Below are positions 2,719 through 6,799 of a DNA stretch of 23,124 nucleotides, one piece after another; the stretch's first letter is position 1; the number at the start of each line of letters is the position of its first letter. The position numbers and the translations under genes were made by a program. Origin of the DNA: a virus; the IMG/VR virus record IMGVR_UViG_3300037827_000598, positions 1-23,124 of that record; one strand, given 5' to 3'. The notes beneath the pieces were generated by a model, which was not told where the DNA came from, ran no database searches, and saw only the letters and a program-made list of their open reading frames with translations.

Positions 2719-3225
2719 ATGAAGAGGGATTATCCTTTACATCCAGAATTTGACAAAGAGATCAAAGAAGAACTATTCAACTCAGAAAAATGGCAAAATT
2801 TGTCAATTTTGGCTAAAGAGTTGGGGGAAAATATTATTGAAATGTCTTTTCATCATCGACATGACTATAGGTTTGGAGAATTTTATGCGACCTTCGGATC
2901 CGGAAAATTTACTGCAACTCGAGTTGAACTTTACGACTCTCCCAGGCATTGGAGAGATAATCCTTTTAATAGATTTGAGGAAAATGGCGAAGAGGCCTCA
3001 GATAAACAGTTATGGGAGGCTTTGCTTGAACTTTTCAATATAGAATTATGTTCGTGCTCTGTATATAAGGGCGATTATTTTATACAAATTTTAGATGAAG
3101 AAATACTCAAAGAATCCATAGATTGCGTCAAGAGATATGATGATTTCGAAAAAGAAAGAAAACGAATTAAAAGGGAACTTAGAGAAATGAACAAGAAGGA
3201 GAAAAAAAATGAAAATCCCACATAA
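2719..3225 (+). CDS. hypothetical protein, early region (168 aa)
   Basis: Function not recognised. The protein is soluble and charged. The middle part (HHRHDYRFGEFYATFGSGKFTATRVELYDSPRHW, residues about 45-78) looks like a beta-rich segment with a His-rich motif. Residues 140-168 are strongly basic and helical (KERKRIKRELREMNKKEKKNE), suggesting nucleic-acid contact or a coiled coil. ATG at 2719 has AAGG five bases upstream. The last 17 bp overlap the following winged-helix gene, whose ribosome binding site lies within this gene, so the two are probably translationally coupled. Placement ahead of replication genes suggests an early function, which is inference only. Confidence 0.65.
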   Translation: MKRDYPLHPEFDKEIKEELFNSEKWQNLSILAKELGENIIEMSFHHRHDYRFGEFYATFGSGKFTATRVELYDSPRHWRDNPFNRFEENGEEASDKQLWEALLELFNIELCSCSVYKGDYFIQILDEEILKESIDCVKRYDDFEKERKRIKRELREMNKKEKKNENPT

Positions 3226-3430
3226 TTTAGGTTATACAAATATTCCTAATGAAGTGCTTAATGATGAAAGATTATCATTTGAGGCTATAGGCGTATATTG
3301 TGCCTGTTGCACCTTTCCACCAGGGAAAGAAATTGATATAAAGGAATTAAAGAAAATGTCTTCTGATGACATTCAAATATTAGAAAAGGCTATTGAAGAA
3401 TTGAAAAAATTTGGGTATTTAAAAGAATAA
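3209..3430 (+). CDS. small winged-helix protein (73 aa)
   Basis: The sequence follows the N-terminal winged-helix pattern of phage replication-organiser proteins: NIPNEVLNDERLSFEAIGVY (helix 1-2), then EIDIKELKKMSSDDIQILEKAIEELKKFGYLKE, that is, a recognition helix and a short wing ending in GYL. Such domains bind DNA near phage origins or act as small regulators. Here only the domain is present, without the C-terminal part of full initiators (usually over 200 residues), so it is either a stand-alone DNA-binding protein or a helper of the initiator encoded next. AAGGAG stands seven bases before the ATG. The stop codon is embedded in the A tract of terminator H3. Confidence 0.65.
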   Translation: MKIPHNLGYTNIPNEVLNDERLSFEAIGVYCACCTFPPGKEIDIKELKKMSSDDIQILEKAIEELKKFGYLKE

Positions 3431-3455
3431 AAAAAAAGACCGGGACGAATCCCGG
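3429..3455 (-). terminator. Rho-independent terminator facing minus strand (H3)
   Basis: CCGGG (3440-3444) pairs with CCCGG (3451-3455) over a six-base loop. On the minus strand it is followed by TCT and then nine T residues (A tract 3429-3437, which overlaps the TAA stop of the winged-helix gene). It has the same CCGGG core and the same wrong-way orientation as H1 and H2, and shares with H2 a CCCGGC...AACTTA flank. Confidence 0.68.
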
Positions 3456-3545
3456 CCTAAACTTAACTGTGATTCCCAGGCAGGAAGCAGTTACATTATG
3501 TCTTTGTGCATCTAATGTAACATTTCTGCCGATTTCACGTCAACA
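3429..3545 (-). ncRNA. candidate antisense small RNA upstream of the replication gene (OOP-like position)
   Basis: On the minus strand this intergenic stretch gives a long imperfect hairpin at 3530-3479: GGCAG/CTGCC at the base and a perfect nine-base-pair GTTACATTA/TAATGTAAC stem at 3513-3521 and 3490-3498. A short linker and terminator H3 follow. A possible -35 TTGACG lies at the right-hand end. Position and direction match phage lambda OOP RNA, which starts just before gene O and runs back towards cII. The hairpin could equally act on the plus strand as a leader or operator for the replication gene. No RNA family is recognised. Confidence 0.4.
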
Positions 3546-3563: not shown

Positions 3564-4634
3564 ATGTCACAAGAAAAAAACCCCTACTTGACAGCAGAAA
3601 GCGGAAGATTATTGGTGGCATTCGATGCCGATTTGGCAAGAGAATTGAAATCTGTCGCTTCCGCGGTTATTTATAATAATATAATCTATAACTTAAGAAT
3701 CCATAAATATGACGTTTACGATATAGATGGAGAAACGTACTATTGCCAATCAATCAAGGAAATAGCAAGATATCTCGGTTGTTATACTGAAAAACAAGTT
3801 CGAACTGCTTTAGAAAATCTTGTTAAGAGAAAAAAATTGATTACCGCCGATCTTAGTCCGGATAGATTAGACAGACCTCATTATTATCGCCTTCCTAGAC
3901 AAAATGAGATAGAAAATTCAAAAAATTCTTGCGTCGTGCCCAAAAAGGCACATCGTAGAAATAATTTAAATCCAGGAGAAAAAAACGAGGAAAATGAACA
4001 TTTAAAAAAATCTTTACGTCGTGCCCCACAGGGCAACACGTTATGCCCTCCAGGGCAACACGGTCCTTATATATACACAATAGATAAACACATAAATAGA
4101 GAAGAAAGAGCGGCGGATTCTGACGAATCGCGCCTATCTTACTTTTTATTTGAAAAGATGAATTCTTTTTCTGAGTTTAAGAGCAAACCAAACATCAAGA
4201 CTTGGGAGAAAGATATTCGTTTGATGCTTGCAAAAGATAAAATTTCCGAAAATGAAATTGTAGATATGATCACTTGGTTGTTTGGACCCGATGGTGACCC
4301 TTTTTGGCAAAGCAACATTCAATCAGCTAAAAAGCTTCGTGATAAATGGAGGACGATTTCATTGCAGAGAAGCTCTAAAAACAAGAAACAGGAACCAAAG
4401 ATCGGAAATAGAGAAAAAGTCCAAAAATGGTTCAAACATGGAGCGATTTATTCAGGAAAAAGAAATGGTGTCCCTGATAAATTAGAATGCTTGATCAGCG
4501 ATGAAAGTATCGCTTTCCAAAGCTATGAAAATTATCAATGTAAGCCGTTTTCGTTAAAATTTCTTGAAAGAGGTTTTGATTCACAATTTGATAATCTTTT
4601 GAGGAAGTTGGGTTTGGAACATAACAAGAAGTAG
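3564..4634 (+). CDS. O-like phage replication initiator / replisome organiser
   Basis: 356 residues. The N-terminal winged-helix domain spans about residues 35-110, with the helix-turn-helix QSIKEIARYLGCYTEKQVRT and a following ALENLVKRKKLI wing. A variable basic linker runs over about 111-185. The C-terminal segment WEKDIRLMLAKDKISENEIV then DPFWQSNIQSAKKLRDKW is typical of the DnaD-like or O-like C-terminus that recruits the host helicase. Such proteins bind repeated sites at the phage origin. The linker DNA carries three TGCCC-N4-GGGCA-type palindromes followed by an AT-rich tract, the arrangement seen in lambda gene O. ATG at 3564 has AAGGA eight bases upstream. No helicase or polymerase gene is in the window, so host replication proteins are presumably used. 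Confidence 0.75.
   Translation: MSQEKNPYLTAESGRLLVAFDADLARELKSVASAVIYNNIIYNLRIHKYDVYDIDGETYYCQSIKEIARYLGCYTEKQVRTALENLVKRKKLITADLSPDRLDRPHYYRLPRQNEIENSKNSCVVPKKAHRRNNLNPGEKNEENEHLKKSLRRAPQGNTLCPPGQHGPYIYTIDKHINREERAADSDESRLSYFLFEKMNSFSEFKSKPNIKTWEKDIRLMLAKDKISENEIVDMITWLFGPDGDPFWQSNIQSAKKLRDKWRTISLQRSSKNKKQEPKIGNREKVQKWFKHGAIYSGKRNGVPDKLECLISDESIAFQSYENYQCKPFSLKFLERGFDSQFDNLLRKLGLEHNKK
3931..4110. other. candidate phage replication origin (iterons plus AT-rich tract) inside the replication gene
   Basis: Three 14-bp near-palindromes of form TGCCC-N4-GGGCA lie at 3937-3950 (one arm base differs), 4022-4035 and 4044-4057. The first two share the left flank CGTCG and the last two the right flank ACACG. 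They are followed at 4067-4110 by an AT-rich tract (TTATATATACACAATAGA and on) suited to strand opening. The order of iterons then AT-rich DNA within the initiator gene's linker region is the lambda-type origin layout. Binding is inferred. Confidence 0.5.
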
Positions 4635-4860: not shown

Positions 4861-5229
4861 ATGTTACTAATTCATGAGTTTACAGTTCCCATTCAGTTAG
4901 TTTCTGAAATGAATGTACAACAACATTGGACTAAGAGGTATAAACGTTCAAAGTCACAGAAGATGCAGATATTTGTAGAAATGCGAAATGGGCCATCGAT
5001 TCCTCTTCCTTGCCACATTCTACTGACTCGATATCACCTCGATGGAAAGGCTATGGATTTCGATAATCTTGTTCCATCATTCAAATTCATAAGAGATGAG
5101 ATTGCTAATGCTCTGATACCAGGTCTTCTTCCTGGGCGAGCAGACGATGACGCAAGACTTTCTTGGGGATATGATCAGCAGGTTGACAAAAAGTATTCTG
5201 TGAAGGTTTCGTTCTTTGGAGATTATTAA
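4861..5229 (+). CDS. RusA-like Holliday junction resolvase candidate (122 aa)
   Basis: The length (122 residues) and the C-terminal acidic pattern match RusA-type resolvases: MDFDNLVPSFKFIRDEIANAL contains the conserved D-x-DN-L and following D, and PGRADDDARLSWG supplies the later DD pair. RusA enzymes cut Holliday junctions as dimers and are common in phage replication and recombination blocks, which fits the neighbouring initiator and the ERF/exonuclease operon. The N-terminal half (FTVPIQLVSEMNVQQHW) is compatible but not diagnostic. AGAG lies four bases before the ATG. The assignment rests on the spacing of acidic residues, so it is moderate; a structure prediction showing the RusA fold would settle it. 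Confidence 0.5.
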   Translation: MLLIHEFTVPIQLVSEMNVQQHWTKRYKRSKSQKMQIFVEMRNGPSIPLPCHILLTRYHLDGKAMDFDNLVPSFKFIRDEIANALIPGLLPGRADDDARLSWGYDQQVDKKYSVKVSFFGDY

Positions 5230-6601: not shown

Positions 6602-6770
6602 TCTTACAAATATTCCTCACCAATATATCCAGAAGCTCATTTGCTTCCCTTTGTTTCTTCTCCAACGCATTCAAGCGCGCATAAGTGCCCTTACGAACTC
6701 TTGTGAGAGAATCTTTTAATTCCACAATTTGTGGATTTTCAAATAAATCATATTGTATTTGTGCTGACAT
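6591..6770 (-). CDS. small hypothetical protein, first gene of the minus-strand block (59 aa)
   Basis: ATG at 6770 (MSAQIQYDLFENPQIVELKD) is preceded by AAGGAG with an eight-base gap; a GTG at 6776 is in frame but only two bases from that site and is rejected. The protein has a short N-terminal segment and then a long charged helix (SLTRVRKGTYARLNALEKKQREANELLDIL), probably a coiled coil. It is the first gene after the candidate minus-strand promoter at 6800-6827, divergent from the terminase operon. No function is recognised. Confidence 0.62.
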   Translation of the reverse strand: MSAQIQYDLFENPQIVELKDSLTRVRKGTYARLNALEKKQREANELLDILVRNICKNES

Positions 6771-6799
6771 TATCACAACTCCTTCTTGTCCGCAAAGAA

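Follow-up and report, generated by a model that had tools for sequence, protein, structure and literature searches.

The window, i.e., the whole stretch of DNA that was analysed, is an IMG/VR virus record of 23,124 nt and is probably a fragment of a virus genome. Its other genes include those for an Erf-like annealing protein, a P22-like portal and a capsid-family major head protein (Pfam and PHROG matches). The gene of interest encodes an O-like replication initiator with three parts: an N-terminal domain predicted to bind DNA, a disordered linker and a C-terminal domain of the O/DnaD type (Table 1). Its PHROG matches are phrog_2514, phrog_391 (E 3.5e-17) and phrog_277, which concern the C-terminal half and represent O-like/DnaD-like phage initiators, and it also matches phrog_11233 (E 4e-5).

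The initial annotation called this gene O-like, which fits one end of the protein better than the other. Homology to lambda O lies in the C-domain, with 27% identity over aa 174-286 (pairwise BLASTP, E 3e-12), and a tblastn search of phages with the C-domain as query recovered lambda O (E 1e-6). The N-domain, however, does not match the Phage_rep_O N-terminal domain (PF04492/TIGR01610), of which lambda O itself is a strong match. Pfam RepA_N (PF06970) is likewise absent among the Pfam matches of the whole initiator and of the N-domain alone. Pattern and tblastn searches of viral and bacterial contigs turned up no close homologue of the full-length protein, and tblastn found no relative of it in the fetched stretches of contigs with the same terminase or portal. 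PDB sequence searches with the window initiator, lambda O and the N-domain profile gave nothing significant, and an alignment made across the full range of O-like proteins proved too diverse as a search query.

Structure prediction points elsewhere for the N-domain. The full-length AlphaFold model was too weak for this region (mean pLDDT 60.6), so we built a second model using 47 N-domains, which gave a winged helix with pLDDT 84. The best PDB matches of that model in Foldseek are the N-domains of RepA initiators (4pql, 4pt7, 5kbj and 4pta), and 4ro3, the RepA of the Vibrio cholerae PLE, is also among the matches. These fold matches are modest (probability 1.0, E 7.5e-4 to 2e-2, TM about 0.5), and on this prediction the nearest fold is the N-domain of staphylococcal plasmid RepA. 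Between the two domains, aa 120-184 have pLDDT below 50 in the full-length model and are predicted to be disordered, and it is the DNA for this stretch of linker that carries the repeats described below.

Table 1. Features of the initiator locus (window coordinates)
Feature	Position	Strand	Basis or detail
O-like replication initiator gene	3564..4634	+	ORF, 356 aa; disordered linker between winged-helix N-domain and O/DnaD-like C-domain
N-domain, aa 20-108, predicted winged-helix DNA-binding	3621..3887	+	family profile match; AlphaFold pLDDT 84; Foldseek RepA N-domains
Predicted recognition helix, aa 76-88 (Lys77 codon 3792-3794, Arg80 codon 3801-3803)	3789..3827	+	AlphaFold N-domain model
Iteron 1, imperfect: CGTCG-TGCCC-AAAA-AGGCA-CATCG	3932..3955		motif scan
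Iteron 2: CGTCG-TGCCC-CACA-GGGCA-ACACG	4017..4040		motif scan
Iteron 3: CGTTA-TGCCC-TCCA-GGGCA-ACACG, 22 bp after iteron 2	4039..4062		motif scan
Candidate DNA-unwinding tract adjoining iteron 3	4066..4108		nearest-neighbour energies
O/DnaD-like C-domain, aa 187-275, motif FWxxNIxSxxKLRxKW	4122..4388	+	lambda O homology; AlphaFold pLDDT about 90

The linker carries three dyads of the form TGCCC-N4-(G/A)GGCA, and all three lie where they had been reported, at 3937 (TGCCCAAAAAGGCA, one mismatch), 4022 (TGCCCCACAGGGCA, exact) and 4044 (TGCCCTCCAGGGCA, exact). With outer arms included, the dyad reads CGT-N2-TGCCC-N4-GGGCA-N2-ACG, and the 23 kb window contains no further TGCCC-N4-GGGCA match when up to 1 mismatch is allowed. 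Iterons 2 and 3 follow each other with a 22 bp period and have 2 bp in common, while iteron 1 is less perfect and lies 85 bp upstream of iteron 2. The copies are read in three different codon frames (encoding V-P-K-K-A, A-P-Q-G-N and C-P-P-G-Q), so selection at the protein level cannot explain the repeat.

Randomisation puts the dyads beyond chance. Three copies were seen in 0/100 dinucleotide shuffles and, when the named TGCCC motif was counted, in 1/2000 and 0/2000 synonymous-codon permutations. A generic palindrome-family score is less discriminating, with values as high in 7/2000 and 3/2000 runs. The repeat score of the initiator gene was equalled in 1/100 synonymous permutations. As a positive control, the same scripts recovered exactly the four annotated iterons of lambda O, for which 0/100 permutations scored as high.

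The AT-rich tract said to follow the palindromes is real but short. Nearest-neighbour energies make it less stable than 99.5% of 42-bp windows, compared with 99.7% for the lambda tract in its own locus, and a 60-bp GC bin covering the same region looks average. The least stable stretch of the whole initiator gene is 3668-3710, which lies within the N-domain and away from the iterons. Relatives with TGCCC iterons show the same arrangement: in 31/34 genes the DNA immediately following the last iteron ranks within the top 5% for instability (median 99.7%), compared with 8/34 for the DNA ahead of the first iteron. The order of iterons and then tract is therefore a property of the family. GC skew, which had been suggested as another check, was rejected as origin evidence; its sign changes with gene direction and is uninformative about the origin.

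The initial annotation supposed that the initiator binds the palindromes, and a search made with DNA alone ties the two together. We ran the protein-blind pattern TGCCC-N4-GGGCA-N8-TGCCC-N4-GGGCA on a viral collection and obtained 36 contigs, in 35 of which the tandem pattern falls within the linker of genes that have one N-domain in common; the 36th (L194) is cut at its edge and begins inside such a linker. A profile of this N-domain, made from TGCCC-iteron genes with the window left out, matches aa 20-108 of the window initiator with 50.5 bits (E 5e-16) and does not match O-like proteins that have other iterons (lambda, PHB10, L016 and L062). The C-domains of TGCCC-family genes are mostly of other types, and one contig (L196) has the window's N-domain and iterons together with an O-type C-domain. 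That contig and the phages of phrog_11233 ("replication initiation protein") have the N-domain family and the 22-bp TGCCC linker dyads in common with the window. The N-domains of the phrog_11233 phages are nonetheless divergent from that of the window (about 16-34% identity), and the flank next to the dyads, which is CGT in the window, is mostly CGA/GGA and then TT in the family.

Bacterial genomes gave 17 matches to the tandem pattern, 7 of them in genes of this N-domain family. The other 10 lie outside the family, several in GC-rich DNA, and were not counted. Among the seven is a Mycolicibacterium locus (L211, Mycolicibacterium sphagni, 6721-6786); this locus and one in an Actinomycetota MAG (L212, 459-516) each have a winged-helix gene with TGCCC dyads in tandem at 22 bp and are probably prophages or satellites.

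The converse search started from the protein and was blind to iterons. From 548 genes found by the N-domain alone, 80 were sampled, and 45 of these were non-redundant. At least two TGCCC-type repeats occur in 22 of the 45, the gap between repeats is 22 bp in 30/31 cases, and 20 exact dyads were counted where 1.3 were expected (maximum 5 in 200 synonymous resamplings).

Whether a gene has TGCCC repeats goes with one residue of its predicted recognition helix. In the window the KQ(I/V)R motif reads Lys77-Gln-Val-Arg80 and stands at the start of this helix; its first and fourth residues are Lys and Arg in 42/42 tandem-TGCCC genes. In the iteron-blind sample, a TGCCC repeat is present in 50/55 Lys genes and 0/8 non-Lys genes (Fisher p 3e-7), an association which after thinning gives p 5e-5 at 80% identity and 0.007 at 70%. 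Another 35 N-domains, all distinct and new, behave in the same way, with TGCCC in 9/14 Lys genes and 0/21 non-Lys genes (p 3e-5; 0.0012 at 80%). Several non-Lys genes have TTTGTC- or TTTGTT-like dyads instead, often 22 bp apart too. Vibrio phage 1.247 (L069) has the same N-domain and an O-type C-domain but Gln at the Lys77 position, and it has no TGCCC repeats. Homologues that keep the protein and lose the repeats had been named as evidence against an origin; at the family level, Lys homologues mostly keep TGCCC and Lys-less ones carry other dyads. Since thinning controls only partly for relatedness, we regard the link between a Lys77-type residue and TGCCC iterons as a strong lead and not as proof.

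Repeats are also found in O-type genes more generally. Among 31 non-redundant O-type genes of viral contigs, 10 scored above all 200 synonymous permutations and 20 had p <= 0.05. The strongest arrays are mostly at nt 250-490 of the gene, often spaced at 20-24 bp and spread over two or three frames, and the iteron sequence differs from one gene to the next in this set. Two contigs sharing the window phage's terminase or portal have in-gene repeats of their own, GGTGC-N7-GCACC at 23 bp (L016) and GCGGA-N2-TCCGC at 22 bp (L057). Annotated O relatives were considered as a source of the same TGCCC dyad and rejected, as their iterons differ. Two O-like genes have conspicuous arrays: L160 has four TAAGTCAGAAYCGACTTA-type dyads at 2335-2421, 22 bp apart and in all three frames, and L117 has near-perfect 21-bp palindromes (ACGGTGAACCTGGTTCACCGT) at 2336-2476 in three frames.

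An origin inside the initiator's own linker is textbook biology for lambda and for RepA_N plasmids. An origin of this kind is thus already known, and the window matches the anatomy of both systems while failing the sequence definition of each (PF04492/TIGR01610 and RepA_N). The lambda-type layout described in the initial annotation, with iterons in the initiator linker and then a melted tract, holds: as in the window, the lambda origin is inside the initiator gene between the N-domain and a homologous C-domain (PMC5043065), its dyad iterons recur every 20-24 bp or so and occupy several codon frames, and an easily melted tract of ~40 bp comes directly after them. The window differs from lambda in that its N-domain is not recognisably homologous, its iteron sequence is different, it has three copies with one distant, and no P gene was recognised beside the initiator. 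In lambda, O dimers on the iterons open the adjacent 40-bp A+T tract (PMC5043065), and two AT-proximal iterons plus the tract are enough for unwinding and in vitro replication, according to the work of Dodson 1986 and Wickner and McKenney 1987 as cited in PMC7466680.

RepA_N initiators (pSK41, pTZ2162 and relatives) resemble the window initiator in having an N-terminal winged helix, which in the window is predicted, boxes centrally in the rep gene and an origin-encoded linker (PMC5703833). Their C-domain is likewise DnaD-like; in pSK41 the RepA N-domain binds four Rep boxes centrally inside rep, and the linker that the origin encodes can be dispensed with, while pPR9 shows joint replacement of N-domain and origin (PMC5703833). 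In contrast to these plasmids, the window has no Pfam RepA_N match, its dyads are GC-rich TGCCC dyads, its C-domain is of the lambda O type and it belongs to a phage. The Vibrio cholerae PLE RepA also has a RepA_N-fold N-domain that binds semi-palindromic repeats (PMC7145576), but those repeats are in a non-coding region and not in the initiator gene. The N-domain and origin of the window appear to be one module, joined to the C-domain of another lineage. Neither the TGCCC-iteron family nor the lysine signature was found in the literature searched, whose coverage leaves out most subscription journals.

We propose that the phage carries a theta-type origin inside its initiator gene (3564-4634), a reading to which we assign a probability of about 0.86. 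Dimers of the winged-helix N-domain would bind the three dyads, the TGCCC half-sites being read by the recognition helix that has Lys77/Arg80 at its start, and the core would be the two AT-proximal dyads, which are two helical turns apart. Binding would strain the DNA such that the adjacent tract at 4066-4108 opens, and the C-domain, held on the disordered linker, would then recruit the host replicative helicase, either directly or via a loader. Being disordered, the linker may be free in sequence to encode the origin. Binding, opening and helicase recruitment are carried over to the window from lambda.

Four other explanations deserve consideration. Dyads are typical targets of winged-helix dimers, and these could be operators for the initiator's own gene, whose transcription would be under the control of the initiator or of some other regulator, with replication starting elsewhere. 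An operator role would not exclude an origin role, but the dyads are about 370-500 nt inside the gene, which is no promoter position, two or more of them keep a 22-bp phase, 31/34 relatives have easily melted DNA directly after them, and the same position serves as an origin in lambda and RepA_N plasmids (PMC5043065, PMC5703833). We therefore consider operators unlikely, albeit the least unlikely of the four. Somewhat less probable is that the site is origin-like but inactive or secondary, i.e., a relic in a phage which mainly replicates from another origin. Such decay would fit the degenerate copy 1, which leaves only two strong dyads, and the window is fragmentary with no loader recognised; against this, two AT-proximal iterons with the AT tract suffice in lambda (work cited in PMC7466680), and the exact arms of two copies point to selection that is still acting.

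The palindromes might instead work at the RNA level, as hairpins in the initiator mRNA, which we rate as more doubtful again. RNA from 3925-4070 does fold better than 200/200 shuffles (z -3.7), as would be expected of any such palindromes. Pairing would not account for arm sequence and flanks recurring across genes, for a spacing fixed at 22 bp (two DNA turns) or for a dyad sequence that tracks a recognition-helix residue, and the AT-rich dyads of relatives would pair weakly. Chance or low-complexity repeats can be given almost no weight: repeats are tolerated in disordered linkers, and p is only about 0.002-0.004 by the generic palindrome score alone, but the same motif with the same 22-bp period in the linker of N-domain genes in 35/36 viral contigs already contradicts this reading.

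On a broader idea we would offer even odds: that there is a large and as yet unnamed family of phage initiators in which the N-domain and in-gene origin form an exchangeable module placed on different C-domains, and in which the first residue of the recognition helix sets the iteron (TGCCC for Lys, TGTC/TGTT-like for others), usually with a 22-bp period. If true, this would be a readable protein-DNA code, from which origins and replication compatibility of uncultivated phages could be predicted by sequence alone. Phages known through metagenomes alone mostly come with neither an assigned origin nor an assigned initiator specificity, and in this case a single motif search gives both. The link between residue and dyad also makes the exchange of origin/initiator partners a bench question that needs two proteins and two probes. 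Moreover, the modular junction, where an N-domain and its origin sit on a lambda-O-type C-domain, suggests that phages can swap replication specificity and keep the part that meets the host.

Several smaller features surround the initiator gene. No P or DnaC helicase loader was recognised among the window ORFs scanned, the contig being a fragment. Rfam and tRNA scans were empty. Just 5' of the gene, a 73-aa ORF (3209-3430) is similar to the N-terminal portion of a different initiator family (phrog_4707, E 6e-11) and may be a stand-alone or truncated initiator N-domain. On the 3' side, a small ORF at 4861-5229 looks RusA-like by eye (DFDNLVPSFKFIRDEI) and has no Pfam or PHROG match. GC-rich hairpins of the CCGGGC/GCCGGG type occur at 2016-2046, 2538-2561 and 3437-3458, ahead of successive + strand genes. 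Each is directly preceded by an A run on the + strand, so they are terminator-like for the minus strand.
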